From Pelomonas cellulosilytica (GTDB lineage: Bacteria; Pseudomonadota; Gammaproteobacteria; Burkholderiales; Burkholderiaceae_C): DNA of 64,000 bases. The notes below the pieces were generated by a model. It saw only the letters and a list, made by a program, of their open reading frames with translations. It ran no database searches and was not told the DNA's origin. The stretch covers positions 434,001 through 498,000 of the forward strand of contig NZ_JAJTWU010000003.1 of NCBI RefSeq assembly GCF_021353265.1, written 5' to 3'. Below are positions 1,984-16,458 of this stretch, piece by piece. The position numbers and the translations under genes were made by a program. Each line of letters begins with the position of its first letter. Position 1 is the stretch's first letter.

Positions 1984-3234
1984 ATGAGGCGCGTGTTCAT
2001 CAGCCATCGCAACGGCCGTGCCGATGAAATCGCGTTCATCCGGCGCCTGCGCGACGGGCTGGCGGACGACGGCTTTGAAACGCTGGTCGACTTCGAGCGG
2101 CTGGCGTCCGGCGCCGCGCTGCGGCAGGACGTCTACACCTGGCTCGGCATCTGTCATGCGGCGGTCGTGCTGCTGTCCCCGGAGGCCCTCGGCGAAGACA
2201 GCGCCTGGGTGCCGACGGAGTCGTCGATCCTGGCCTGGCGCCGCACGCTGGACCCGAAGTTCCTGCTGATCCCGGTGCTGATGCCCGGCGTCGAGCTGGA
2301 TGACCTGCGCGTGCACCTTCGCTTCCGCGACCTGGGCCTGCACGACCTGCTGTGCATCCCTTTCGAGAACGAGGCCAGCACCCTCGGCAAGATTCGCGCG
2401 GCGCTGCAACCCCTGCAACCCATCGCCCGCACACCGATGGAGGAGCTGGCCGAGCAGATCGAGGTGAAGCTGCAAGGCGTCCGCGACGACTTCCTCGACG
2501 AAGTCACGCGTCTGTGCGGCGCTGCGCAGCACGAGCTCCCCGCCGGCATGCTGCGCAACCGCGTCGCAGCCCTGGCGTTGCTGCAGGCGCCGTTGGCCGA
2601 GACGCTGGCCGCCCTCGAGTACCTCGCTCCCCGCCTCGGCGGCGCGCACGACATCGATCACATCCTCGACCTTGTCGCCCCCAGTTGGGTGGACCTGTGC
2701 GCCGCGCGCTGGCTGGCGCAGTGCGCGCTGGCGCCGGCACCGCGGCCGGCCGTCGTCGTCAACGCGCAGACGCAGTTCGGCGCCGAGATGTTCGTGCGCC
2801 GCGCCTGCTGCCGGCCCCCGCGCACGATGTGGCACCTCGTCAAGGTCACCGCGGTATTCGGCGAGAAGGCGTTCGAGGACCTGGCGATGGAGATCCAGGT
2901 GGCGCTCGAGACCGCATTCGCCAGCGCGTTGCAGTACGCCGACTCGCCCGCCCAGCAGCTGTTGCTGGTGCTCGCCAAGCTGCACAAGCTGGGCCGGGCC
3001 ACCGTCGTCATGCTGCGCCTGAATGTCGGGTTCGAGGAGCTGATCCCGCCGCTGCAGGAGCGCTTCCCCTACCTCACTTTCCTGTTCCTGTCGGGCGACG
3101 AACTGCCCTCGCAGGAGTTCCCGACCAGCCTGCTGCGCCTGGTGGAGCCGTCGCTCGCCCCCGGGCAGGAGCTGGACGCGTTGACCACCTACCAGACCGC
3201 TCGCGCCCTGTTGCGCCCCACCAGCCCTCCGTGA
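1984..3234 (+). CDS. TIR-domain protein, first gene of TIR/MoxR/TssBC cassette
   Basis: A 416-residue soluble protein. Residues 1-130 form a TIR domain: beta-A motif RRVFISHRNGRADEIAFIRR, the DFERL loop at 36-40, HAAVVLLSPEAL, then SAW-VPTE with Trp75 and Glu79 spaced like the Trp and catalytic Glu of NAD-cleaving TIRs (SARM1, plant and bacterial TIRs). NADase activity is therefore plausible but unproven. Residues of about 150-416 match no family I recognise; they look mixed helical and strand-rich (for example TVVMLRLNVGFEEL) and may be the sensing or docking part. The stop lies 7 bases before the MoxR gene, so the genes are probably co-transcribed. No strong ribosome-binding site precedes the ATG at 1984. 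The TIR call is firm; the system function is inferred from context. Confidence 0.85.
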   Translation: MRRVFISHRNGRADEIAFIRRLRDGLADDGFETLVDFERLASGAALRQDVYTWLGICHAAVVLLSPEALGEDSAWVPTESSILAWRRTLDPKFLLIPVLMPGVELDDLRVHLRFRDLGLHDLLCIPFENEASTLGKIRAALQPLQPIARTPMEELAEQIEVKLQGVRDDFLDEVTRLCGAAQHELPAGMLRNRVAALALLQAPLAETLAALEYLAPRLGGAHDIDHILDLVAPSWVDLCAARWLAQCALAPAPRPAVVVNAQTQFGAEMFVRRACCRPPRTMWHLVKVTAVFGEKAFEDLAMEIQVALETAFASALQYADSPAQQLLLVLAKLHKLGRATVVMLRLNVGFEELIPPLQERFPYLTFLFLSGDELPSQEFPTSLLRLVEPSLAPGQELDALTTYQTARALLRPTSPP

Positions 3235-3241
3235 GGCCCGC

Positions 3242-4138
3242 ATGACACCTGGCTACACCCCTCTGTTCTCTCCCGCCACGCCCCAGCCTGCACCACAGGA
3301 CGACACCGCCATCGGCGATCGCTCGGCGCTGGGCACCTACGTCTTCAGCGACGAGATCACCCTGGCCGTCAACGTGGCGCTGGCTACGGGCCGCCCGCTG
3401 CTCGTGCGCGGCACCAGTGGCGCCGGCAAGACCTCTCTGGCGCGGGCGCTGGCGCCGCTGCTGGGCTGTGACTTCCGGGAGACCGTCGTCACAGGCCGCA
3501 CCCAGGCGCAGGACCTGCTGTGGACCGTGGACCTGCTGCGCCGGCTGCAGGACGCCCAGCTCAACCAGCTGTCCACCGACTGGAGCCGCTATGTCGTGCC
3601 GGGGCCGCTGTGGTGGGCCTTCGACGCCGCCAGCGCACGCGCGCAGCAAGGCGTCGCCGAGGGCACGGCGCCCGAGACCGGCGCTGGTGAGCCGCGGCGC
3701 AGCCTGCTGCTGATCGACGAGATCGACAAGGCCGACCCCGACGTGCCCAACAGCCTGCTGCGCCCGCTGGGCGACCTGGCCTTCGACGTGACCGAGACCC
3801 GTCAGCGTGTCGAGGCCCGACGGCCGACACCGGTCATCATCATCACGACCAACGAGGAACGCGACCTGCCGCCAGCCTTCCTGCGCCGCTGCGTCGAACT
3901 GACACTGCCGCGCTTCGACCGGGCGCGCCTGCTGGCCATCGGGCGGGCGCACTTCCCGCAGATGGCCCCAGCCTTGGCCGACGCCGCTGCGGAGCTCGCG
4001 CTGGCCGCCGCCGAACAAGGCGACCGGCGCGATGCCAACCCGGCCGAGTACCTTGATCTGCTGCGCGCCTGTCAGGACCTCGCCGTCACGCCCGCGTCGG
4101 CCGAGTTCAGGCAACTGGCCAACGTCGTGCTGGGCTGA
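3242..4138 (+). CDS. MoxR-like AAA+ ATPase of the TIR/TssBC cassette
   Basis: A 298-residue AAA+ ATPase. Walker A GTSGAGKT is at residues 57-64, Walker B LLLIDEID has Asp159-Glu160, sensor-1 is IIITTNEERDLPP and an arginine-finger segment is FLRRC. This is the MoxR/RavA-type arrangement. MoxR ATPases typically pair with vWA-domain partners and remodel them or their clients; here the next gene, 2 bases downstream, begins with a vWA-like region and ends in sheath domains. By analogy with ClpV, the AAA+ protein that disassembles type VI sheaths, this enzyme might load or remodel the TssBC polymer. That role is inference. Spacing on both sides implies one operon. Confidence 0.88.
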   Translation: MTPGYTPLFSPATPQPAPQDDTAIGDRSALGTYVFSDEITLAVNVALATGRPLLVRGTSGAGKTSLARALAPLLGCDFRETVVTGRTQAQDLLWTVDLLRRLQDAQLNQLSTDWSRYVVPGPLWWAFDAASARAQQGVAEGTAPETGAGEPRRSLLLIDEIDKADPDVPNSLLRPLGDLAFDVTETRQRVEARRPTPVIIITTNEERDLPPAFLRRCVELTLPRFDRARLLAIGRAHFPQMAPALADAAAELALAAAEQGDRRDANPAEYLDLLRACQDLAVTPASAEFRQLANVVLG

Positions 4139-4140
4139 CG

Positions 4141-7100
4141 ATGCGCCAGCCACCGCCTTCCCCGCTCGGCGACTGCCTGCGCGCACTGGCCCGCCTGCAG
4201 CCGCAGCAGGACGCCGGTGCGGCGATGGCGCAGCTGCTTGGCCTGGCGCGCAAGACGTCGGTGGAGACGACGAGCGGTGCCCTTCCTTCGCCCCCTGCGG
4301 CCCTCAAAGACGACGAGGACGAACCCGCCGCCCGCCACGCGGGGGAACACCGGCCGCAGGCTGTGTCGACCGACAACCGCCTGCCGCCCGCACGTGATGC
4401 CGAGCTGGCGCACGAGACCGGCGACCATGCGCCGCCGCCGGCGTGGCTGGGCGAGGTCGAGCCGCTGGACATGCCGCTACGCGTGTCCGATCCGTTCAAC
4501 ACGCCGCGCCCGCCGCTCTTCAGCGCCGGACTGCAACGCGCCATCGTCATGCGCCTGGCCGCGACCTGGCAGGCCAGCGGCGAGCTGGACCTGGACGCCG
4601 TCGTGCGCACCATGGCGGCGGGCTGCCCGCTGCGGCGCGTGCCTCGGCGGCTGGTGGCCACGACGCGCAAGGGCGTGAGGCTGCTGGTCGACGAGGGCGA
4701 GTCCATGCAGCCCTTTCAGCCTGACGTGGCGCAGCTCGTGCGCAGCTTCCGGCGCACGGTCGGCCCGTCGCGCCTGCGCATCGAGACGTTCGCCACCGTC
4801 CCGCAGCGCGGCGTGCGCGTAGGGCTGGACTGGGAGAGCTACCGGCCGGGGCGGCTGGGCATGGCGCTGGTGCTCATCACCGACCTGGCGCTGCCACCCC
4901 AGGCGCTCACCGCCGCACCGCCGGCCGATGGCGAATGGCTCAGCTTCCTCACGCGCGAGCGGCGCGCCGGCACGATGCCGATGGTGGTCGTGCCGCGCGA
5001 TGCCGCAGACCTGCCGGCTCAACTGCGCCGCCACGCCCGCCTCATCCCGTGGGACCGCCGCTCCAGTCCGCGGACGCTGGCCTCATCAAGCGTCTCGCCG
5101 CCAGGCGCGATAGCCAGCGACGCGACGGACGAGACCGCACTGCAGCCCGCCACCCCGCTGAATCCGCTGGCCACGCTCGACGCCGACACGCTGCGCCTGG
5201 CTGCCGCCTGTGCGCTGGCAGTGCGCATCGAGCCGCCGCTGTTGCGCGCGCTGCGGCTGGCGCTGGGCGGCAACGTGGGGATCGAGGCCCGGCTGTGGTT
5301 CTGCCCCGCTGTGCGCGACCGCGCGGCCACGGGCCTCGTGTTCGACGACGACTGCCGCGACCTGCTGCTGCGCCGGCTGCGCACCGAGCCGGCCTTGCTG
5401 GAACTAGCCTGGCAAGTGGTTTCGCAGGCCCACACCGCACTGGCACCTGCGCTGCGTGCCGAGGAGGAAGCGGCCTACCGCTGGCTGCGCGGCGAGGAGC
5501 ATGCAGCGCGCGCCATCCTGCGCAGCATGGTCGCCACCCTCGTGAACCCGGCCCGAGGCAGTGCCTGGCGCTGGGCCACGCAAGCCGCCGCGCGCCTGCC
5601 GAGCGCCCTGCGACAGGCCGAGGAGGCGCAGATGTTCACGATGGGCGCGGCGTTGCGAAGCGGCGAAAGGCAGCTGCTGCGCCATGTCGAGGGTCGGGGC
5701 GGCAACTCTTGGCACTGGCTGCGACCCGCCGCCCGCGAGCTGGAGCTGGCCGTCACGCTGCGCGAAGGCATGATCGAGTTCGCGCCCGTCACGGCGCAGG
5801 CCACGTTGAAGATCCGCGTGCCGGATGCGCCGCTCGTGCTCATCGACATCCGCCCCACCGAAGGCGCCCTCGACACCGCACCCGCCCGCATCAACCCGCG
5901 GCAGCGCAGCCTCGTTCCGGTGGAGGGCGACAGCTTCGAGCTGCAGGTGCTGGGCGGCGAGCGCTACCGGTTGATGGAGCGCCGGCAGGCTTCGAGCCAG
6001 AAGTTCGTGCCACGCAACCGGGCGCCTCGCGTGCACGTCGCCTACGACATCGAGCTGTATGGCAAATTCAAGAAGGTGGAACTGCCTTTCGTCGTGGGCG
6101 TGATGGCGGACCTGTCAGGCCGGCCGGAGCAGTCGTTGCCGCCCGTCGAGGATCGGAAGTTCCTCGAGATCGACGTGGAAAACTTCGACCAGCGCATGCA
6201 GGCGTTTGCACCCCGCCTGGCCTTGCAGGTAGAGAACAGGCTGGAGAACGAAGGCATGCTCGCCTTGGAGCTCCACTTCCGCGGTACCCAGGACTTCCTT
6301 CCCGGCGAGGTCGCGCGGCAGGTGGCCCCGTTGGCGCGCTTACTCGAATCGCGCGAGTGCCTGTCGAACCTGTTGACGTACACCGATGGAAAAGCGGGCG
6401 CCGAGATGCTGCTGACCCAGGTGCTGAATGAACCACGCATCCGGCAGCTGCTGACGGCCGACGAAAACGCCCCACTATCCAGCGTCGCGTTCCACGGCAG
6501 CGACCTGGAGTCCCTGCTGCACAAGGCCTTCAGCCCGAAGACGGACGGCGCAAGAGACACGCTGACGCAGGCATTGCGGCTGCTTGCGCTGGAGGCCCAG
6601 CGCACAGCTGACTGGACCACCAGCGACGTCATTGCCAGTGTCGAGCAGACCATCGCGGCGATCGACCTGAAGCTTACCGATCAACTCAACCCCATCCTTC
6701 ACCACCCCGATTTCCTGGCCCTGGAAGGCGCCTGGCGCGGGCTTTTTCACCTCGTCGCCAACACCGAGACCGGCACAGACCTCAAGATCCGGGTGATGAA
6801 CATCAGCAAGGCCGAGCTGGCCCGCTCGCTGCGGCGCTACCGCGGCGCGGACTGGGACCAGAGCCCGCTGTTCAAGAAGGTCTACGAGGAAGAGTTCGGC
6901 CAGTTCGGCGGCGAGCCGTTCGGCTGCCTCGTGGGCGACTATCACTTCGACCACTCGCCGCGCGACGTGGAGCTGCTGGGCGAGCTGGCGCGCATTGCCG
7001 CCGCGGCGCATGCGCCCTTCATCGCCGGCGCGTCGCCCGGCATTGCGCAGATGCAAAGCTGGCGGGAGCTGGCCGTGCGCCGTGACATGACCAAGGCTTT

Positions 7101-7938
7101 CGAAACGCCCGAGTACGCCGCCTGGCGCTCACTGCGCGAGTCGGACGAAGCCCGCTGCGTCGGATTGGCGATGCCGCGCTTTCTTGCCCGCCTGCCTTAT
7201 GGTTCGCGCTCGAACCCGGTCGAGGAATTCAATTTCGAGGAGGACACCGGCGGGCCGGAAGGCGACGGCTACGTCTGGGCCAATAGCGCCTACGCGATGG
7301 CCGCCAACATCACGCGAGCGTTCAAGGACTATGGTTGGTGCGCCCGCATCCGTGGCGTGGAAAGCGGCGGTGCCGTGGCGAACCTGCTGGTACACACCTT
7401 TCCGGCCGATGATGGCGGCGTGGACATGAAGTGCCCGACGGAAGTCGCCATCACGGACCGCCGCGAAGCCGAATTGGCACGGGTGGGCTTCATGCCGCTG
7501 GTCCATCGCAAGAACTCGGATTTCGCCGCCTTCATCGGTGCTCAGTCGCTGCAGACGGCCCGCGTGTACGACAAAGAGGACGCCACGGTCAATGCGGCGC
7601 TCGCCGCGCGGCTGCCCTATCTCTTCGCATGCTGCCGCTTCTTGCATTACGTGAAGTGCCTGGTGCGCGACAAGATCGGCTCTTTCAAGGAACGGCAGGA
7701 GATGGAGTTCTTCGTGAACCGATGGCTGGCAACCTATGTCGACCCCGACCCGTCGGCTTCGTCGGAAACGGTGAGGGCGCAACGGCCCCTGGCCGAGGCG
7801 CGGATCGAGCTGGAGGAGCAGGAAGACAACCCGGGCTACTACAAGGCCCGAATCTACCTTCGCCCTCATTACCAGCTGGAGGGCTTGACGACTGCGCTGT
7901 GCATGGAGAGCTGGCTGCCTGGTCCAGGGGCCGCATGA
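4141..7938 (+). CDS. vWA-like/TssB/TssC fusion protein (contractile sheath fusion)
   Basis: A 1265-residue multidomain protein. Residues of about 1-110 are Pro/Ala-rich and poorly conserved. Residues of about 110-310 resemble the vWA-like N-terminal domain of MoxR-associated (SAV_2336-type) proteins; the expected MIDAS motif DxSxS is degenerate, Asp184-Glu-Gly-Glu-Ser188. Residues 345-610 are mainly helical and unassigned. From about 625 a complete TssB (VipA) domain begins: AYDIELYGKFKKVELPFVVG, then VMADLSG, and it continues to about 780. A near-complete TssC (VipB) domain follows to the C-terminus, with LNPILHHPDFLALEGAWRGL and FKKVYEEEFGQFGGEPFG. In type VI secretion these are two separate genes whose products form the contractile sheath. 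Here they are one polypeptide, and no baseplate, Hcp, VgrG, TssJLM or ClpV gene is in the window. The TssB and TssC assignments are strong; the N-terminal assignment is moderate. Confidence 0.88.
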   Translation: MRQPPPSPLGDCLRALARLQPQQDAGAAMAQLLGLARKTSVETTSGALPSPPAALKDDEDEPAARHAGEHRPQAVSTDNRLPPARDAELAHETGDHAPPPAWLGEVEPLDMPLRVSDPFNTPRPPLFSAGLQRAIVMRLAATWQASGELDLDAVVRTMAAGCPLRRVPRRLVATTRKGVRLLVDEGESMQPFQPDVAQLVRSFRRTVGPSRLRIETFATVPQRGVRVGLDWESYRPGRLGMALVLITDLALPPQALTAAPPADGEWLSFLTRERRAGTMPMVVVPRDAADLPAQLRRHARLIPWDRRSSPRTLASSSVSPPGAIASDATDETALQPATPLNPLATLDADTLRLAAACALAVRIEPPLLRALRLALGGNVGIEARLWFCPAVRDRAATGLVFDDDCRDLLLRRLRTEPALLELAWQVVSQAHTALAPALRAEEEAAYRWLRGEEHAARAILRSMVATLVNPARGSAWRWATQAAARLPSALRQAEEAQMFTMGAALRSGERQLLRHVEGRGGNSWHWLRPAARELELAVTLREGMIEFAPVTAQATLKIRVPDAPLVLIDIRPTEGALDTAPARINPRQRSLVPVEGDSFELQVLGGERYRLMERRQASSQKFVPRNRAPRVHVAYDIELYGKFKKVELPFVVGVMADLSGRPEQSLPPVEDRKFLEIDVENFDQRMQAFAPRLALQVENRLENEGMLALELHFRGTQDFLPGEVARQVAPLARLLESRECLSNLLTYTDGKAGAEMLLTQVLNEPRIRQLLTADENAPLSSVAFHGSDLESLLHKAFSPKTDGARDTLTQALRLLALEAQRTADWTTSDVIASVEQTIAAIDLKLTDQLNPILHHPDFLALEGAWRGLFHLVANTETGTDLKIRVMNISKAELARSLRRYRGADWDQSPLFKKVYEEEFGQFGGEPFGCLVGDYHFDHSPRDVELLGELARIAAAAHAPFIAGASPGIAQMQSWRELAVRRDMTKAFETPEYAAWRSLRESDEARCVGLAMPRFLARLPYGSRSNPVEEFNFEEDTGGPEGDGYVWANSAYAMAANITRAFKDYGWCARIRGVESGGAVANLLVHTFPADDGGVDMKCPTEVAITDRREAELARVGFMPLVHRKNSDFAAFIGAQSLQTARVYDKEDATVNAALAARLPYLFACCRFLHYVKCLVRDKIGSFKERQEMEFFVNRWLATYVDPDPSASSETVRAQRPLAEARIELEEQEDNPGYYKARIYLRPHYQLEGLTTALCMESWLPGPGAA

Positions 7939-7973
7939 GCCACGACAAGACAACCCAAGGAGAGACGCCATGA
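7935..7973 (+). other. Possible 12-codon bridging ORF between fusion gene and next gene
   Basis: An ATG at 7935 overlaps the stop of the TssBC fusion gene (ATGA). It opens a frame of 12 codons (MSHDKTTQGETP) whose TGA overlaps the ATG of the downstream gene, again as ATGA. The AAGGAG for the downstream gene lies inside it. Two back-to-back ATGA junctions could couple translation across the 31-base gap. There is no evidence the peptide itself matters, and chance is possible. Confidence 0.3.
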
Positions 7974-8446
7974 AACTGCGCGAGTGGCTGGATGCCTGGA
8001 GCCTGAAAGGGCTGAAGATCCATGCGGGCTTCCTGGACGCGGAGTTCGCGCCGAACGACCAGGACGCCGATGCGGCCTGGGAGCTCTACGTGGAGCTGCT
8101 GACACGCGCGACGACGCAGCTGCTGCCGCAGGATGCGGGCGACGAGGCGGCCGCGCTGGAGTCCGTCCACGACCTCTTCGGACTCACGCGCGCCATCCTG
8201 CGAGCGCCGGGCCGCCGGCATGCGACCGGTTTCGCAAAGATCGCCATCGTCGTTCTGAACCAGAAGGTTCGCCCGTTCACTGCCAAGTGGCACAAGCTGC
8301 AGCTGGCCGGCCTGCTCGACAAGCCGGACATGCGCGCCGACTTCCGCAGCGAACTGACCGCGCTGCAGGTCGATCTGCGGCATTACGCCGGGCTGTTGTC
8401 TCAGATGGCCGGCGTGGAAGATCTGACGACACTGCAGTCGTCCTGA
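7970..8446 (+). CDS. Small uncharacterised protein closing the TIR/MoxR/TssBC cassette
   Basis: A 158-residue protein, predicted soluble and mostly helical, with no signal peptide or membrane helix. I do not recognise a named family. Notable segments are IHAGFLDAEF (residues 17-26), the central VLNQKVRPFTAKWH motif and the C-terminal helix ending in MAGVEDLT. AAGGAGAGACGCC in front of the ATG is the best ribosome-binding site in the cassette, so this product may be made in excess of the fusion protein. Its position as the last co-oriented gene before a convergent helicase makes it part of the cassette. Possible roles, as pure inference, are an adaptor or immunity partner of the TIR protein, or a sheath cap. 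Confidence 0.7.
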   Translation: MKLREWLDAWSLKGLKIHAGFLDAEFAPNDQDADAAWELYVELLTRATTQLLPQDAGDEAAALESVHDLFGLTRAILRAPGRRHATGFAKIAIVVLNQKVRPFTAKWHKLQLAGLLDKPDMRADFRSELTALQVDLRHYAGLLSQMAGVEDLTTLQSS

Positions 8447-8504
8447 AGGCTTGCTGCGGCGACCTGCGCGCAGGCATGCAGCGGACCGACAGCCTCCTGA
8501 GCGC

Positions 8505-10781
8505 TCAGCCGCCGGGCGGTTCGTCCGCTGCCAGCGGCGCCAGCAGCAGCTTCAAATCGGCCTCACCGAACTTGGCGAGCGCTCCGCCATCGTCCTGCCC
8601 CAGCAGGCCGTCGGCCAGTGCGCGCTTGCGGGCCTGCAGCTCCAGCATGCGCTCCTCGATGCTGCCCTGCGCGACGAGCTGGTAGACAAACACCGGCTGG
8701 TCCTGCCCGATGCGGTGAGCGCGGGCGCTGGCCTGCGCCTGCACGGCCGGGTTCCACCACGGGTCAACGTGGATGACGGTGTCGGCCGCCGTCAGATTCA
8801 ACCCCACACCGCCGGCTTTCAGACTGGCCAGCAGCACGGGCACCTCTCTGGCCTGGAAGCGCTGCACGATGTCGCCCCGCTGGCCCGCGGGCGTCGCGCC
8901 GGTCAGCCGCAGATGCGGCACGGGCACCTCGGCGGCGATCAGGTCCAGCATCTCCGTAAACTGTGAGAACACCAGCAACCGCCGGCCCTGGGCGACGAAG
9001 TCCGGCAGGTGCTCGCGCAGCCACTCCAGCTTGGCGCGCTCAGTGTGCGGCGCCATGGCCACGCCCTTGACGAGGCGCGGATCGCAGCAGACCTGGCGCA
9101 GCTTCAGCATCGCGTCCAGCACGCTGATGAGACTGGTGGGCGAAAAGCCATCGCGCTGGAGGATGCGGCGCACCATGTGATCTGCCGCGACGCGCACGCT
9201 CTCGTAGAGCTGCTTCTGCTGGCCCACCAGTGTGACGCGCTTGACCAGCTCGGTCAGCGGCGGCAGCTCGGTGGCGACTTCGGTCTTCAGACGGCGAAGG
9301 ATGAAAGGCCGCACGCGCGCTGCGAGCAACCGCGCCCGCGAGCCGTCGCGGTTGACCTCGATGGGCTTGCGCCAGTGCCGCGCAAACGTGCGCGAGTCGC
9401 CCAGGAACCCGGGCATCAACAGGTCGAACATCGACCACAGCTCGCCGAGGTGGTTCTCCAGCGGCGTGCCGGTCAGCGCGAGGTGGTGACGCGCATCGAG
9501 CCGGCGCAGCGCTCGCGCGGCCCGCGCCCGCGCGTTCTTCACGGACTGGGCCTCGTCGAGGATCAGCAGGTGCCAGGGCTGGGCCGACAGCGTGCGCAGG
9601 TCGCGCCAGACGAGGTTGTAGGTGCTGAGCACGATATCGGCACCGGCCAGGTCGACACCCACACGGTCGGCACCGTGCCAGGTCAGCACCGTCAGCCCCG
9701 GCGCGATGCGCGCAGCCTCCTTCTGCCAGTTGAACAGCAGCGAGGTCGGCACGATGATGAGCGCCGGGCGATCCAACCGGCCGGCCTGCTTCTCGGCCCA
9801 GACATGGGCCAGCGCCTGCGCCGTCTTGCCCAGGCCCATGTCGTCGGCCAGGATGCCGGCCAGCTGTTGTTCACGCAGGTACTGCAGCCAGGCCAGGCCG
9901 TGCAGCTGGTAGGGCCGCAGCTGCAGGCCCAGGCCAGGGGGTTGCGCGAGGGCCGGGGGGGCGCCGGCCGCCAGCAGACGCTGCCCCAGGGCCTTGAGCC
10001 CCGCATCACCGTGGATCTGCCAGCGTTCGCGCGACTCGTCCTCGATGTAGCGCAGCCGATCGGCGTCCCACTCATTGAGCTTGATCGGCTTGCCCTTCTC
10101 CAGCTCGGCCGGCTTCAGCAAGTCCAGCAGCGCCAGCATGATGACCTTCAAAGGCGCCGCCTGCGCGTGATAGCGCCGTCCGCCGGGCGCGCGCAGCGAG
10201 ACGATGGCGTCGTCCTCGATGGCGGCGATGGCCCAGGCATCCAGCCAGCGCTTGTCGCGGCGCAGCAGATTGCCCATCAGAGGCGCCAGGTCCAGCCGCT
10301 GACCGTCCACCTCCATGCCCAGGCTGACGAGCCAGGCGCCGGTGCGCCGCTCCAGGCCCAGGCCTTCGACACGGCGGCGCGGTCGCAGGGCGAGCTCGGC
10401 CGTCTCTTCTTCGAGCCCGAGCTGCCAGCCGCTGACGAACTGGCTGTGATGCGCGAAGCCCGGCTCAGTCGTGACCCGCCAGCCCAGTGCCAGCAGCTCG
10501 GGTACCTTGTCGGCATGGAAGTCGCCGAAGAACTCCTCCTGGGGCGTGGTCCAGAGAGATGCGGCCAGGGGCTGCGGGCTGCCACGCCACTGCAACAGGG
10601 CCGGGTCCAGGTGCACCAGGCCGTGCTGCAGCAACGTCTGCTCGGCCGCCAGACCGCCGCCGTCCAGCATCGCCACGGTGACCTGCTCGCCCCGCGGCCC
10701 CAGGGGGCCGCGCGGCCGCAGGCCCAGCAGACCGTCACCACGGGTCAACGTGCGCAGGACGAGCTGGGGGGAAGGCGCCAT
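8505..10781 (-). CDS. SNF2-family DEAD/DEAH-like helicase/translocase
   Basis: A 758-residue ATP-dependent DNA translocase. Motif I DDMGLGKT lies near residue 315, motif II DEAQ near 407, and motif III is LTGTPLENHL. The C-terminal helicase domain has LLVFSQFTEMLDLI, LLASLKAGGVGLNLTAADTV and the SNF2 motif SARAHRIGQDQPVFVYQLV. The N-terminal part (about 250 residues) lacks an obvious SWIM zinc finger, so this is shorter than the roughly 1000-residue SWIM-containing bacterial SNF2 proteins. It is convergent with the TIR/MoxR/TssBC cassette, so it is probably not in its operon, although SNF2 helicases also occur in phage-defence loci. The most likely role is general nucleoprotein remodelling. 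Confidence 0.9.
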   Translation of the reverse strand: MAPSPQLVLRTLTRGDGLLGLRPRGPLGPRGEQVTVAMLDGGGLAAEQTLLQHGLVHLDPALLQWRGSPQPLAASLWTTPQEEFFGDFHADKVPELLALGWRVTTEPGFAHHSQFVSGWQLGLEEETAELALRPRRRVEGLGLERRTGAWLVSLGMEVDGQRLDLAPLMGNLLRRDKRWLDAWAIAAIEDDAIVSLRAPGGRRYHAQAAPLKVIMLALLDLLKPAELEKGKPIKLNEWDADRLRYIEDESRERWQIHGDAGLKALGQRLLAAGAPPALAQPPGLGLQLRPYQLHGLAWLQYLREQQLAGILADDMGLGKTAQALAHVWAEKQAGRLDRPALIIVPTSLLFNWQKEAARIAPGLTVLTWHGADRVGVDLAGADIVLSTYNLVWRDLRTLSAQPWHLLILDEAQSVKNARARAARALRRLDARHHLALTGTPLENHLGELWSMFDLLMPGFLGDSRTFARHWRKPIEVNRDGSRARLLAARVRPFILRRLKTEVATELPPLTELVKRVTLVGQQKQLYESVRVAADHMVRRILQRDGFSPTSLISVLDAMLKLRQVCCDPRLVKGVAMAPHTERAKLEWLREHLPDFVAQGRRLLVFSQFTEMLDLIAAEVPVPHLRLTGATPAGQRGDIVQRFQAREVPVLLASLKAGGVGLNLTAADTVIHVDPWWNPAVQAQASARAHRIGQDQPVFVYQLVAQGSIEERMLELQARKRALADGLLGQDDGGALAKFGEADLKLLLAPLAADEPPGG

Positions 10782-10865: not shown

Positions 10866-12665
10866 TCAGCGTTGCTGCGCGGCCACCCAGCGCCGGATGC
10901 GGCGGTCCAGCACGTCCACCGGCATGGCGCCTTCACCCAGCACCTGGTCATGGAACTCGGCGAGGCGGAACTTCTTGCCCAGGGTCTTCTCGGCGTGCTG
11001 GCGCAGCGCCTGGATGCGTAGGGCCCCCATCTTGTAGCCCAGAGCCTGACCGGGCCAGGCCAGATAGCGGTCGATCTGGTTCACGGCCAGCGCACGGTTT
11101 GCGCCGGTGATCTCCATCCAGTAGGCGATCGCCCGCTCGCGCGGCCAGCCCATGGCATGCAGGCCGGTGTCCACCACCAGGCGTGCCGCACGCACGATCT
11201 CGCCGTTGAGCTGGCCGGCATAGGCGGCCGGATCGTCGTACAGGCCGAGCTCATGGCCCAGAGTCTCGGCGTAAAGCGCCCAGCCTTCCACGTAGGCATT
11301 GCTGCCGGTATGCCGACGGAAGGACGGCAGCGTCATCTCCTGCTGCAGTGCGAGCTGGAAATGGTGGCCGGGCTGGCCCTCGTGCAGCAGCAGCGCGGTC
11401 ATGTCGGGTGTGCTGGCCGCCAGCGGGTCCGGGATGGCGGCCCAGAACACGCCCGGCAGGCTGCCGTCGGCCTTGCCCAGCGTGTAATGGGGTGAGGCGG
11501 TGGCGCGGGTCAGCTCTGGTTCGGCGCGGATCTCCAGCGGTGTGCGTGGCTGGCGGCCGAACAGTCGGGGCAGCTGCGGCTCGACGCGGGCATTGATGGC
11601 CCGGTAGCCCTGCAGCACGTCTTCCTCGGTCTTGAAGGGGCGCCAGCGCGCGTCGGCCTGCAGCCAGGCGAGCAATCCGCCGTCGCGCAGCGGGTCCCCC
11701 TCGAAACCGAGGCGGGGTGCCAGACGCGCAATCTCCTGCTGGATGCGCCCCACCTCGCGCAGGCCGAGCTCATGGATAGCCTGGGGCGTGAGCGTGGTGT
11801 TGGTCTGGTCGCGCACGACCTGGCGGTACCAGTCCTGGCCTCCGGGCAGGCTGCCCAGGCCGGGGCTGGTCCGGCGAGCGGCGGCAGGCATGTAGTCCGC
11901 CTGCGCGAAGGCCTGCAACCTCTGCAGGCCCGGGACCACCTGCTCACGCAGGGTCTGTTCAAAGGCGCGGGCGAGGTCGATGGCGTCCTGCGCAGCCAGG
12001 CCGGACGTGACGCCTGGCTCGAGCAGGCGCAGCGTGGCGCCGAAGGGGTTGCGGGTCAGGTCGGGATCGGCCAACCGCGTGAGCTGCTGCAGGCTGGCCT
12101 CCATGACGGAGGGTGATTGCACGATGCCGCGCGCCAGGCCTTCACGCAGATTCAGTACCGCCTGGTCACACCAGGCCGGCAGCACCCTCAGGCGCTTGAG
12201 GTAGGCCTCGAACTCGGGCCGGGTTCTCAGGGGCTGTGACTCCATCTGCCCGCCCGCGAACATCGCCAGCAGCAGCGGCACCGACGACATGTGCTCCAGC
12301 GGCAGCAGATGGTCGGGGAAGCGGGACAGCGCCAGCTGGTCGCTCAACAGGCGCTCCAGCAGTTCGCGCGTGAGGCGGTCCGACGGCGAGAGATCCGCGA
12401 CCGGGATGCCGTGCAACTCCTTCAAAAAGCCGCGGTAGGCGTCGAAGCGGCGCGCGCGCTCGGCCGGCGCCAGCGACAGCGCGAGCTGGTCGTTGAAGCG
12501 GTAGTCGCCGTTGAACATGGCCAGCAGCGGATCGAAGCGCGCCTGGGCATCCCAGGCCCGGGTCGCCAGGTCGGCCAGGCGTTCGGCGGGCGTGGCGGCC
12601 AGCGCGGGCTGCAGCAGGCCGAGCGCCAGGGTCAGCACGGCCAGGCCATCACGGATCAGCTTCAT
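10866..12665 (-). CDS. Secreted DUF885 family protein, putative metallopeptidase-like
   Basis: A 599-residue protein starting with a signal peptide (MKLIRDGLAVLTLALGLLQP, cleavage near ALA-ATP), so it is likely periplasmic or a secreted protein. The DUF885 signature LLLHEGQPGHHFQLA lies in the C-terminal half and resembles a zinc HExxH-type helix. Further conserved segments are NAYVEGWALYAETLG and YLAWPGQALGYKMG. The length is normal for DUF885. The ATG at 12665 was chosen because an upstream in-frame start would put about 43 unrelated residues before the signal peptide. An ATG two codons upstream is also possible. The substrate is unknown. Confidence 0.88.
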   Translation of the reverse strand: MKLIRDGLAVLTLALGLLQPALAATPAERLADLATRAWDAQARFDPLLAMFNGDYRFNDQLALSLAPAERARRFDAYRGFLKELHGIPVADLSPSDRLTRELLERLLSDQLALSRFPDHLLPLEHMSSVPLLLAMFAGGQMESQPLRTRPEFEAYLKRLRVLPAWCDQAVLNLREGLARGIVQSPSVMEASLQQLTRLADPDLTRNPFGATLRLLEPGVTSGLAAQDAIDLARAFEQTLREQVVPGLQRLQAFAQADYMPAAARRTSPGLGSLPGGQDWYRQVVRDQTNTTLTPQAIHELGLREVGRIQQEIARLAPRLGFEGDPLRDGGLLAWLQADARWRPFKTEEDVLQGYRAINARVEPQLPRLFGRQPRTPLEIRAEPELTRATASPHYTLGKADGSLPGVFWAAIPDPLAASTPDMTALLLHEGQPGHHFQLALQQEMTLPSFRRHTGSNAYVEGWALYAETLGHELGLYDDPAAYAGQLNGEIVRAARLVVDTGLHAMGWPRERAIAYWMEITGANRALAVNQIDRYLAWPGQALGYKMGALRIQALRQHAEKTLGKKFRLAEFHDQVLGEGAMPVDVLDRRIRRWVAAQQR

Positions 12666-12964
12666 AACCATCACGCGAAACAAGTGCAGGCGGCCGGATT
12701 CTGTGGGCCGACCGCGGCGGACGAGACCCGGATGAACCCAAGACGCAGGCTTTGCGTCCTCTGTCGAGAGGATGTCGCCCGGCTTCTCGGCCATACCGGG
12801 CGTGACACAACAGAGGGGCAGGTCGGCATGCGCAGGACTGGTGCGCGGTCGGTGCGGGCATCACGACATGCTCGCAGCCGCGCACGCGCAACTTAACCTT
12901 GGCTTCACGAAGCTGGCTCCCAGCTGCAAGCTTCACGCCGCGGCGCGTTCGAATAATGGCGGCC

Positions 12965-13288
12965 ATGCGCAAGCTCGCCCTGCACCTGCTGCTGCCGCTG
13001 GCCCTGCTTTTCTCGCAGCAGGGCGCGGTGTGGCATGTGCTCGCGCACCTGAGCGCCCCCGCGCAGCAAGCCTCGGCCACCGAGGTGCTGGGCGCCACGG
13101 ACGATGCCGACGAGGTGTGCCCGCACTGCCTGGCCTATGCCCACCTCGCGGTGAGCCTGGGCACGCAGACGGCGCCGCTGCCGCTCGTCACGGCACGCCA
13201 CGAACCGGCCCTCTCGGCGCTGCATGCCGGCCAGCCCGCGCGGCCGCCCGTGGCGCGCGGCCGCGGGCCGCCGACGTTCCTTCTCTGA
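12965..13288 (+). CDS. Small exported Cys-pair protein, DUF2946-like
   Basis: A 107-residue protein with an N-terminal signal or anchor helix (LALHLLLPLALLFSQQGAVW) followed by VCPHCLAYAHLAV with Cys52 and Cys55. This CPxC layout resembles DUF2946-type periplasmic proteins found with TonB-dependent metal receptors. The gene precedes the TonB-dependent receptor by 77 bases on the same strand, which suggests a shared metal-related role; this is inference. The start could also be the ATG at 12956, three codons upstream. The C-terminal third is Arg/Pro-rich and unremarkable. Confidence 0.6.
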   Translation: MRKLALHLLLPLALLFSQQGAVWHVLAHLSAPAQQASATEVLGATDDADEVCPHCLAYAHLAVSLGTQTAPLPLVTARHEPALSALHAGQPARPPVARGRGPPTFLL

Positions 13289-13365
13289 AGCCTGTCCAGT
13301 CCCGTGCTCCCGCGGCGCTCTGCCGCGGGCGGCCGGCTGCATCCCTTCCCGGAAGTCGTCACATC

Positions 13366-15492
13366 ATGCGCAAGTTCCAATCCCGCACCCTGCCCCTCGC
13401 CCTCACCCTCGCCTACCCGCTGATCGCCGCCCACGCCGACCCGGACGCCTCCGTCACCGACACGCTGCCCACCGTGCAGGTGCAGAGCGCCCGCAACCGC
13501 CTCGACGCCGCACGCAACGGCCTCTCGCCCGACACCGGCAGCACCCAGTACAAGTTCAGCCGCGAGGACATCGCCCGCCTGCCGCTGGGTGACGACACGC
13601 CGCTGAACCAGCTGCTGCTGCAGGCCCCCGGCGTCGTGCAGGACTCCTACGGCGCCATCCACGTACGCGGCGACCACGGCAACCTGCAGTACCGCCTCAA
13701 CGGCGTCGTCATCCCCGAGGCCATCAGCGGCTTCGGCCAGGTGCTGGAGACGCGCTACGCCAACAACGTCAGCCTGCTGACCGGTGCGCTGCCGCCGCAG
13801 TACGGTTACCGCACGGCCGGCGTCGTCGACATCCAGACCCGCGACGGCATCGACGACGGCCGCCCGCTGGCCGGCAGCGTCGGCGTGACGCTGGGCTCGC
13901 ACCAGCAGCGCGAGACCGACCTGACGCTGCATGGCAGCCAGGGCGCACTGAGCTACAGCTTCAGCGGATCCTACGAGGGCAATGCGCTGGGCATCGAGAA
14001 CCCCTCTGGCAGCCGCAATGCGCTGCACGACCAGACGCACCAGGGCAAGGCACTGGGCACGCTGTCCTACCTGATCGACCCGGACACCCGCGTGACGGCG
14101 CTGTTCGGCGTCACGAACAACCGCTTCGAGATCCCCGACGTGCCGGGGCAGTCGCCACAGTTCAACCTGGCTGGCGCCGATCCCAAGGATTCCGCCCAGC
14201 TCGACGCCCGCCAGCGCGAACGCAACCGCTTCGCTGTGCTGAGCTACCAGAGCGCGCTCGGCTCGCAGGTGGATTACCAAGTGTCGCTGTTCCACCGCTA
14301 CACCGACGTGCACTACACGCCCGACACAGTGGGCGACCTGCAGTACCTTGGCGTCGCGGCGGACATCCTGCGCCGCAACGAGGCCAACGGCGTGCAGGCC
14401 GACATGAGCTGGCGGCTGGACAGCCAGCACACGCTGCGCACCGGTGTCTTCGGGCAGCGCGAGCGGGCGGTCACGCTGAACAGCGCACAGGTCTTCCCTG
14501 CGGACGACAACGGCAGCCCGACCAGCACGACGCCGCTGCAGATCGTCGACAACTCGGGACTTCGCGGCGGGCTCTGGGGCGCCTACCTACAGGACGAATG
14601 GAAGCCCATGAAGGGCCTGACAGTGAACTACGGTCTGCGCTACGACCATGTGAACACCGTCAGCACCGAAAGCCAGTGGAGCCCGCGCCTGGGCGCCGTG
14701 TGGGACGTGACGCCCTCGCTGCGCGTGCATGCCGGCTACGCGCGCTACTTCACGCCGCCGCCGACGGAGAAGATCGACGGCACCTCGGTGGCCGCCTTCC
14801 AGGGCACCACCAACGCGCTGCCGTCAGACGCCAACACGTCGGTGAAATCCGAACGCTCCAACTACTATGACGCGGGCCTGGCCTTCCAGGTCAGCCCGCG
14901 GCTGACGTTGAGCGCCGATGGCTACTACCGCGACGTGCGCCACTTGCAGGACGAAGGCCAGTTCGGCAACGCGCTGATCTACTCGGCCTTCAACTATGCG
15001 CAGGGCCGCATCTACGGCCTGGACCTGGCGGCCAACTATAAGGACAAGCGCTGGTCTGCCTACGCCAACGTGGGCCTGACGCACGCCCGCGCACGCCAGG
15101 TCGAGACGGGACAGTTCAACTTCGAGCAGGACGAGCTGGACTACATCGCCAGCCACTGGGTGCACCTGGACCACGAGCAGAAGCTCAGCGCGTCGGCCGG
15201 CTTCAACCTGCAGCTGGACGAGGGCTACGCGGTAGGCGCCAGCGCGCTGTTCGGCAGCGGCCTGCGCAACGACTTCGCCAACACCGGCCACCTGCCCGCG
15301 TACACGACGGTGAACGCCGACGTCAGCAAGACCTTCCATGTCGGCGACGCCGGCCCCGTGCAGGCGCGGCTGGCGGTGGTCAACCTGTTCGACCGCCAGT
15401 ACCAGCTGCGCGACGGCTCCGGCATCGGTGTCGGCGCGCCGCAGTTCGGCGAGCGCCGCGGCGTGCAGCTGAGCCTCAGCAAGGACTTCTGA
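13366..15492 (+). CDS. TonB-dependent outer-membrane receptor
   Basis: A 708-residue outer-membrane transporter. A signal peptide (residues 1-24, ending AAHA) is followed by the plug domain with SREDIARLPLGDDTPLNQLL and GVVQDSYGAIHVRGDHGNLQ, then the barrel with alternating aromatic strands. It closes with GVQLSLSKDF, a barrel terminus with the final Phe expected for BAM recognition. The TonB box is probably TLPTVQVQ near residue 38. The substrate cannot be read from sequence; the small CPHC protein upstream hints at a metal ion or metal complex. GGAAG precedes the ATG at 13366. An open frame extends upstream to 12772, but it overlaps the small gene and lacks a signal peptide, so the start at 13366 is preferred. 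Confidence 0.9.
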   Translation: MRKFQSRTLPLALTLAYPLIAAHADPDASVTDTLPTVQVQSARNRLDAARNGLSPDTGSTQYKFSREDIARLPLGDDTPLNQLLLQAPGVVQDSYGAIHVRGDHGNLQYRLNGVVIPEAISGFGQVLETRYANNVSLLTGALPPQYGYRTAGVVDIQTRDGIDDGRPLAGSVGVTLGSHQQRETDLTLHGSQGALSYSFSGSYEGNALGIENPSGSRNALHDQTHQGKALGTLSYLIDPDTRVTALFGVTNNRFEIPDVPGQSPQFNLAGADPKDSAQLDARQRERNRFAVLSYQSALGSQVDYQVSLFHRYTDVHYTPDTVGDLQYLGVAADILRRNEANGVQADMSWRLDSQHTLRTGVFGQRERAVTLNSAQVFPADDNGSPTSTTPLQIVDNSGLRGGLWGAYLQDEWKPMKGLTVNYGLRYDHVNTVSTESQWSPRLGAVWDVTPSLRVHAGYARYFTPPPTEKIDGTSVAAFQGTTNALPSDANTSVKSERSNYYDAGLAFQVSPRLTLSADGYYRDVRHLQDEGQFGNALIYSAFNYAQGRIYGLDLAANYKDKRWSAYANVGLTHARARQVETGQFNFEQDELDYIASHWVHLDHEQKLSASAGFNLQLDEGYAVGASALFGSGLRNDFANTGHLPAYTTVNADVSKTFHVGDAGPVQARLAVVNLFDRQYQLRDGSGIGVGAPQFGERRGVQLSLSKDF

Positions 15493-15550: not shown

Positions 15551-16192
15551 TCAGGAAGCCAGCACGCCCTTGATGTGGGCGGCGATGGCGTCGTCCTGGC
15601 AGTTCGTGAAGAACAGCTCCTGGAACTTCTCGCCCGACACGGCGGCCTTCAGCAGGTCCTGGTCGACGGCCTTCAGCGTCGTCAGCATGTCCTTGCACGA
15701 CGCGGCCTTCAGGTCCTTCAGGATTCCGCGGTTCTTGGCCATGATGGCGGCGCGCTCCTTCGGGTAGCCGGCGCCGCGCTCGTTCTCCAGCAGCTTGCGG
15801 TAGCAGTCCTGCAGGTTCAGCTCGGCGGCCCAGCCGAAGCCCTTGGCATAGGGCATGGACATGGCGTTGCCGTCGTTGATCTGGCCGAACAGGAAGGCGT
15901 CGGTCGGATCGATGACGAGGCCGCAGAACACGCCCGGCATGCTGTTGCAGGCCAGCATGGAGCCCATGCCCGTGCCGCAGCCGGTGACGACGAAGTCCGC
16001 CGCTTTGCTGTTCAGCAGGATGCCGGCCAGCAGGCCGTTCATGACGTAGGTGAGCGAGGCCTTGTCCTCCGGCGTGTACATGCCGTAGTGGTGGACGCTG
16101 TGGCCCAGCGGCTCGGCGACGGTCTTGAGCGCGTTGTGGACGATCTCGGACTTGGCGGCCTGGCTGTTCTCGATGATGAGGGCGATCTTCAT
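15551..16192 (-). CDS. RpiB/LacA/LacB-family sugar-phosphate isomerase
   Basis: A 213-residue cytoplasmic enzyme. The N-terminus MKIALIIENSQAAKSEIVHN and the motif VVTGCGTGMGSMLACN, followed by GLVIDPTDAF, are characteristic of the RpiB/LacAB fold, which interconverts aldose and ketose phosphates. It is longer than classical RpiB (about 150 residues) because of an extra C-terminal helical part with several Cys. That longer subfamily is annotated only as RpiB/LacA/LacB family, so the substrate (ribose-5-phosphate or another sugar phosphate) is open. The ATG at 16192 directly begins the beta-1 strand. The next gene upstream on this strand is 266 bases away, so a separate promoter is likely. Confidence 0.85.
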   Translation of the reverse strand: MKIALIIENSQAAKSEIVHNALKTVAEPLGHSVHHYGMYTPEDKASLTYVMNGLLAGILLNSKAADFVVTGCGTGMGSMLACNSMPGVFCGLVIDPTDAFLFGQINDGNAMSMPYAKGFGWAAELNLQDCYRKLLENERGAGYPKERAAIMAKNRGILKDLKAASCKDMLTTLKAVDQDLLKAAVSGEKFQELFFTNCQDDAIAAHIKGVLAS

Positions 16193-16458
16193 GGCGGTGG
16201 GCTTTCGGGTCTGGCGGAAGTTGGGCGGGGCGGCACCGCTGGCCGGCTGGGCCGGCGTGTGGGCCGTCATGCCAGGTGCCGGCCCGCGAGCGGGCAAGAC
16301 GGCGTGGTCTGTGTCAGCGACCTGGCCAACCGCGCATCCCTGCAGTGGAATGCTGGCGCGGCTGCCATTGTGCCTGCAGGTGGAACGGCGTTTCATAAAT
16401 GCCATTCAATCCGGGGAGCGATGTGGGCCTTCCAGCCCGCCAACCGGCGCGAAGGCCG

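Follow-up and report, generated by a model that had tools for sequence, protein, structure and literature searches.

A TIR and MoxR gene cassette of Pelomonas cellulosilytica whose target protein carries a sheath protomer

The closest described relatives of the genes analyzed here are conflict systems built around MoxR-type AAA+ ATPases. According to the portions of a paper on diversity-generating retroelements that deal with them (PMC10907252), a MoxR gene lies immediately upstream of the target gene, an N-terminal extension without a predicted domain replaces the vWA domain of the target protein, and a lectin domain stands at the C-terminal end; a second short lectin gene is often present, TIR or trypsin genes lie alongside, and the authors propose that the lectin protein is the sensor. 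The wider MoxR-vWA ternary systems, with VMAP, iSTAND, FtsH or beta-propeller components, are covered with their variable modules in parts of Kaur et al. (2020; PMC7159879), which list superstructure-forming domains among these modules; the words "sheath" and "T6SS" (type VI secretion system) are absent from the main text of that paper. Here, we analyze four head-to-tail genes on the forward strand of a 64,000-nucleotide stretch of Pelomonas cellulosilytica DNA (the window; contig NZ_JAJTWU010000003.1, positions 434,001 to 498,000), which encode a TIR protein, a MoxR AAA+ ATPase, a fusion of an N-terminal module (NT) with the sheath proteins TssB and TssC, and a protein of 158 amino acids. We see an even chance that this cassette belongs to those TIR-effector MoxR conflict systems that combine MoxR with a long N-terminal extension and an exchangeable C-terminal module, with a sheath protomer serving as that module.

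The cassette within the MoxR framework

The genes are separated by 7, 2, and 31 bases, in that order; these gaps, the four genes, and their domain calls other than the vWA-like region, all given in a first-pass annotation made from the letters of the window, were borne out by the open reading frames (ORFs), Pfam, and NCBIfam (Table 1). Set beside the systems of PMC10907252 (clade 5A/DGR 9 type), as far as the relevant portions of that paper describe them, the cassette likewise has MoxR directly upstream of the target, at the 2-base gap, a target with a long N-terminal extension without predicted domains, a likeness by description that does not imply homology of the extensions, and an adjacent effector gene, which is TIR in the window and TIR or Trypsin_2 (one below the cut-off) in 6 of 9 relatives. 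It differs in having TssB-TssC instead of a C-terminal C-lectin/FGE domain, although FGE is found in the NT relatives. This comparison rests on MoxR, extension, lectin, and effector. With the systems treated in parts of PMC7159879, the cassette shares a MoxR with a putative vWA-type partner, a highly variable C-terminal module, and TIR among the effectors, but its vWA is weakly detectable and no VMAP, iSTAND, FtsH, or propeller component was recognized. Its assignment to the family of MoxR conflict systems is made with good confidence. A conflict- or defense-type function, as originally suggested, is the best reading of the data, whereas the accompanying suggestion of an undescribed system is not supported in that form, since PMC7159879 and PMC10907252 already describe a framework in which MoxR and a vWA-type partner are combined with TIR and a variable C-terminal module. 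Only the sheath module looks undescribed, and a sheath module within the MoxR framework was not found in the open-licence full texts searched.

The TIR protein matches TIR_2 in Pfam (E 4.7e-9), and its C-terminal region resembles those of the TIR proteins at L187 (26% identity, 3.8e-7) and L181 (24%, 2.6e-5), two of the related loci described below. A motif alignment shows that Glu79, named in the first-pass annotation, is conserved as part of W-x3-E in three related TIR proteins (L187, L181, and L059). The MoxR protein matches AAA_5 (E 6.1e-12) and falls just short of bpMoxR (3.6e-6, 26.6 bits, with a cut-off of 27); Walker A (GTSGAGKT) and Walker B (LLLIDEID) were read by eye from the translation, and identity to the MoxR proteins of L187, L181, and L059 is 42 to 44%. 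The catalytic-type Glu is a feature in common with Thoeris and other TIR defense systems, and a relative of the small protein stands beside a ThsB-type TIR gene in L042. The cassette differs from Thoeris in its putative trigger module, which is MoxR-NT-sheath; the matches of its TIR protein to Thoeris models are weak (ThsB, E 0.019 and 0.071; ThcB4, 19.1 bits against 220), and no ThsA match was found by PADLOC among the four proteins.

The NT module may be a worn vWA, judging from its sequence. Residues 1 to 622 of the fusion have no Pfam match at an E value of 3 or below, and the DxSxS motif is not conserved in the NT alignment. The first-pass annotation had spoken of a vWA-like region, a term weakly supported by a pair of Asp residues conserved at the ends of two predicted strands (15/15 and 16/16 rows with letters there) and a match of one NT relative to VWA_CoxE (E 0.0052, below the family cut-off). 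A search with residues 100 to 620 against 5.8 billion proteins, with 8,000 candidates scored, returned six further NT-TssB-TssC proteins (P0005 to P0010), with NT identities of 47 to 71%, the highest being that of P0005. One of them, P0008 (1,049 amino acids, on a 3.2-kb contig), is without the NT start. In another protein, P0011, NT is joined to STAND and weakly caspase-like parts.

The eighth fusion, L187, came from the genome sample and belongs to another genus of the same family (genome G005), where TIR, MoxR, and an NT ORF are followed by an NT-TssB-TssC ORF. Its identity to the window is 43% in the TIR domain, 26% in the TIR C-terminal region, 42% in MoxR, 31 to 32% in NT, 51% in TssB, and 58% in TssC. 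Because the same TIR-MoxR-NT-TssB-TssC order thus recurs in a second genus at 26 to 58% identity, depending on the part, the layout of the cassette is not due to chance. The expected co-occurrence of TIR and MoxR with the fusion holds at both fusion loci that can be read with their surroundings, the window and L187, which are two of the eight known fusions. In L187 and in L181, NT is split into two ORFs that overlap by four bases (positions 7284 to 7287 and 2400 to 2403 of the respective loci); its position is thus similar in these two lineages, which suggests that NT consists of two separable modules, fused in the window.

At all nine other readable NT loci (L091, L092, and L181 to L187), a MoxR gene lies immediately 5' of NT; these represent eight genomes, as L184 and L185 share one, and L054, which ends inside NT, is outside this count. 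The gene before MoxR encodes a TIR protein at four of them (L092, L181, L182, and L187), Trypsin_2 at two (in L186 below the cut-off), a metallophosphoesterase in L183, an alpha/beta-hydrolase in L091, and a protein of no Pfam family in L185. Most NT proteins found carry an FGE/C-lectin domain at the C-terminal end (L091, L092, L181, L182, L183, L186, L054, and P0131), although that of L182 is cut by the end of the locus (19.3 bits in Pfam, against 23.3). In L184 an FGE ORF comes next after NT, in L185 no FGE was recognized, and a second short lectin-only gene is found at L092, L184, and L186. In the window, TssB-TssC takes the place of the lectin. Because the position in the protein is the same, TssB-TssC may do what the lectin does in these relatives.

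Profile searches with an NT alignment (A2), built from five of the eight NT sequences then known, found NT in at least 4 of 399 genomes of the order and at least 7 of 369 of the class, the window's own genome being included in both; these counts are lower bounds, as at most three candidates were scored per genome. The locus set used here leaves out the matches G366, G957, and G985:C549. These searches, together with the small-protein loci described below, were the source of the NT proteins with an FGE/C-lectin domain. Viral contigs yielded no NT relative. The NT tree groups seven of the fusions with a support of 97 and leaves L187 outside.

Table 1. Features of the cassette and its border, in window coordinates
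Feature	Position	Strand	Basis and remarks
TIR protein, 416 amino acids	1984..3234	+	ORF; TIR_2; TIR domain at about residues 4-108, W75-x3-E79
TIR protein, C-terminal region, residues 150-416			common to the TIR proteins of two related MoxR loci (L181, L187)
MoxR-type AAA+ ATPase, 298 amino acids	3242..4138	+	ORF; AAA_5; Walker motifs
NT-TssB-TssC fusion, 1265 amino acids	4141..7938	+	ORF
NT module of the fusion, residues 1-619	4141..5997	+	vWA-like first half at about 125-310 (degenerate metal site), second half at about 340-615
TssB (VipA) domain of the fusion, residues 620-774	5998..6462	+	Pfam, NCBIfam
TssC (VipB) domain of the fusion, residues 787-1258	6499..7914	+	Pfam, NCBIfam; N-terminal helix region and C-terminal strand present
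Small protein, 158 amino acids, predicted four-helix bundle	7970..8446	+	large family, often beside TIR genes
SNF2-type helicase gene	8505..10781	-	border of the variable stretch, outside the system

The sheath half and its type VI context

The C-terminal half of the fusion is close to a complete sheath protomer. Pfam recognizes T6SS_VipA at residues 625 to 773 (1.8e-46), VipB at 836 to 1138 (1.4e-126), and VipB_2 at 1148 to 1257 (2.9e-37), and the NCBIfam models for TssB (620 to 774) and TssC (787 to 1258) match over nearly their full length and above cut-off. Among solved structures, the sheath half is most similar to the Pseudomonas aeruginosa TssB1C1 sheath, with phmmer scores of 689.8 bits (E 3.1e-206) for TssC1 (5n8n) and 170.3 bits for HsiB1 (4uqz). 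Thirty free sheath pairs of the family share 32 invariant positions in TssB and 118 in TssC; of these, the window retains 28 and 109, and the other seven fusions retain 26 to 30 and 80 to 109, respectively. All eight have near-complete TssB and TssC without stops. The difference from the T6SS sheath (PDB 5N8N, as presented in parts of PMC5807055) is that in the window the nearly full-length TssB and TssC form one covalent chain, which also includes a 67-kDa NT.

In keeping with the first-pass annotation, the sheath part is found outside a complete T6SS. The window's genome (6.35 Mb, listed as 100% complete) has one TssB match, which is the fusion itself, one TssC match, and no TssK match in a search that covered TssB, TssC, and TssK among the T6SS parts. 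The genome of L187 likewise has one TssC match and no TssK, whereas TssK is present in all three comparison genomes, which were chosen because they have sheath genes (G027, G046, and G071). In the family, TssC was found in 43 of 150 sampled genomes and TssB in 138 of 399. From the TssB-positive genomes, of which a part was inspected, six weak or long-frame matches were re-searched; none of the five that were read has NT, TIR, or MoxR. Five records labeled as phage (H3 to H7) contain TssB-TssC sequence and are possibly bacterial or misbinned contigs.

In a type VI lineage of the window's order (L188 and L192 to L202), one ORF of about 630 to 950 amino acids encodes both TssB and TssC, and in L192 this one-piece gene is followed by Hcp, TssF, and TssG. 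Both domains thus share one polypeptide there as in the window, but these proteins have no NT, and their TssC is 40 to 47% identical to that of the window. That such fusions exist in true T6SS clusters, and that the NT-bearing fusions sit on long branches, would suit a degenerating or borrowed T6SS part that plays no role in conflict, whether as a T6SS regulator or as a remnant of tssB-tssC that became joined to an unrelated gene. This explanation is already disfavored and appears very improbable: the best free TssC, at 67.7%, is far closer to the window than that lineage is, all eight fusions are stop-free and near complete with most invariant positions kept, and neither of the two genomes searched has TssK.

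A tree of 39 sheath pairs (the eight fusions, L188, and the 30 free pairs) places the fusions near the larger free clade, and all eight form one side of an unsupported branch (17/84); a single origin is neither shown nor excluded by this tree. The window TssC is 65.5 to 67.7% identical to its ten best free relatives and 48 to 67% identical to the TssC of the other fusions, whereas its NT reaches 71% identity to that of P0005. That closeness to the sheaths of working T6SSs persists in a host showing no TssK or second TssB, which could point to a guard or decoy function. The sheath half would then lure a phage or plasmid protein that attacks sheath proteins or makes use of them, and the TIR protein would fire once this half is lost or modified. 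However, a host without T6SS would have little to guard, the long branches speak against close tracking of T6SS sheaths, and we know of no attacker of sheath proteins. We regard this explanation as unlikely, even though it is, together with a pure scaffold, one of the two main rivals.

The scaffold alternative was the model of the first-pass annotation. In this scenario, NT-TssB-TssC forms an open protofilament or ring, MoxR builds or dismantles it in a ClpV-like role, and the polymer clusters the TIR protein, with nothing foreign being bound. The sections of PMC5807055 on the P. aeruginosa sheath report that TssB1C1 tubes were purified from Escherichia coli making both proteins, that sheaths with N-terminally His6-tagged TssB1 could be purified as well, and that the AAA+ protein ClpV targets the TssC N terminus. 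Taken with the retention of the TssC N-terminal region and most sheath invariants in the window, and with the place of superstructure-forming domains among the variable modules in the parts of Kaur et al. noted above, these data favor a polymer. The same sections describe an N-terminal TssB strand that joins the handshake at the inner layer, and untraced stretches, among them the TssB C terminus and the TssC N terminus, that lie towards the outer edge. Because these two ends lie there, a peptide link between TssB and TssC looks easy. The NT module on the TssB N terminus is another matter. By our own calculation, based on contracted H1 geometry and an NT that points inward, the lumen has room for about 24 kDa per protomer (110-Å channel, 20.2-Å rise, 6.5 protomers per turn), as against the 67 kDa of NT. 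A closed tube in which every protomer carries NT is therefore unlikely, which leaves rings, open protofilaments, or the sparse insertion of the fusion into a different sheath. Besides this small lumen, the scaffold model is opposed by the lack of any sign of contact between TIR and sheath and by the occupant of the same slot in the relatives, which is a lectin-type domain rather than a known polymer. We consider it possible, but less likely than not.

Possible working of the cassette

Returning to a conflict system with an exchangeable sheath module, we propose the following working. The NT half would bind the MoxR hexamer, as vWA-type partners do, and the sheath half, in the lectin's position, would meet a trigger or assemble in its presence. 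NT would relay this change to MoxR, which would spend ATP in passing it on, and the TIR protein, released or clustered by MoxR action, would then cleave NAD+ by means of Glu79. The four-helix-bundle protein may be a partner of the TIR protein, whose output it would tune or carry. We infer each of these steps, as we do protection against phage. A role of the sheath half in sensing or assembly is about equally probable and improbable, and a phage sheath or tail as the trigger is rather unlikely. More broadly, one could imagine that bacteria without a type VI apparatus recruited an intact sheath protomer, possibly repeatedly, as an exchangeable switch, for recognition or assembly, in a TIR immune system, where entry of NT-TssB-TssC into a sheath-like assembly, be it an open polymer of the protein itself or a contractile phage tail under construction, triggers NAD+ destruction. 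We put this forward as a doubtful but possible extension.

Several observations weigh against a MoxR conflict system of this kind. The vWA identity of NT is weak, and among the four cassette proteins no VMAP, iSTAND, FtsH, or beta-propeller third component was matched by Pfam at an E value of 0.1 or below. PADLOC gave only weak TIR and AAA matches. The NT-TssB-TssC fusion is rare, its TssB and TssC evolve faster than free ones, as the long branches indicate, and the lumen estimate disfavors the familiar closed sheath. The small protein is missing at L187.

If the proposal is true, a contractile-sheath protomer serves outside any injection machine as the module of an immune switch. The fusion would also be a defined, expressible protein with which to study the role of the exchangeable C-terminal modules in MoxR conflict systems. 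The structure of the sheath pair is known, which makes the question of sensor or scaffold directly testable.

The small protein and the genomic surroundings

The small protein, which the first-pass annotation had counted among the four genes of the system, is not specific to it and appears to be a companion of TIR proteins that was acquired by the cassette. The window protein matched no Pfam, NCBIfam, or PADLOC model, and a single protein search yielded 2,796 homologues among 2,962 candidates, and the names among the 120 homologues listed include Planctomycetes, Chloroflexi, Pseudomonadota, and a Promethearchaeota metagenome-assembled genome. In the window's family it was found in 5 of 299 genomes, one of these matches (G004, E 3e-4) being probably false. 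We read 80 of 106 confirmed loci, all on genome contigs, where the other cassette parts are nearly absent by tblastn at 1e-4: MoxR and TIR were found in L059, which has the order small protein-TIR-MoxR with the contig ending in MoxR, NT was found in L054, and TssB and TssC were not matched at any of the 80.

TIR genes are frequent companions of this family. By a gene caller and a TIR profile, both home-made and crude, applied to 79 of the 80 loci (L055 was left out), 58 have a TIR gene within four genes of the small protein and 21 have none. The share of TIR genes is 58/154 for adjacent genes, 14/136 at a distance of two, 3/123 at three, and 8/569 further away. Pfam confirms such neighbors in L042 (ThsB_TIR and TIR_2) and L013 (TIR_2-nSTAND1-FGE). 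This conserved family, which spans several phyla and frequently lies next to TIR genes, is a separate gain of this analysis. In one further case a fusion (P0005) and a small protein (P0013) are probably neighbors, since each bears the name Rubrivivax and comes from a contig of 20,501 bases. The AlphaFold model of the window's small protein is a four-helix bundle (mean predicted local distance difference test score, 85.4), and the structural matches of this model are not distinctive. In L017, a 957-amino-acid patatin-like protein (7080 to 9953), whose N terminus resembles the small protein, is encoded directly upstream of the small-protein gene.

On its right, the cassette is bordered by the SNF2-type helicase gene, detected in 19 of the 20 genomes sampled from the genus, the window's own included. 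The far side of this gene is conserved in relatives, with 16944 to 19037 present in 8 of 8 fetched and 15551 to 16405 in 7 of 8; the window genes in between, at 10866 to 15492, were not found in any of the 8. On the cassette side, none of 15 genus-mates has a cassette gene within about 12 kb (shorter in L115, L121, and L126), and a single gene from the window's left flank appears in L123 alone, at a distance of 11 kb. As this side differs across genus-mates, it is a variable place, as expected of acquired conflict genes. To the left of the cassette lie a NorB-type nitric oxide reductase gene (3 to 1511, by Pfam) and a small ORF (1545 to 1832) that we take to be DUF2249.

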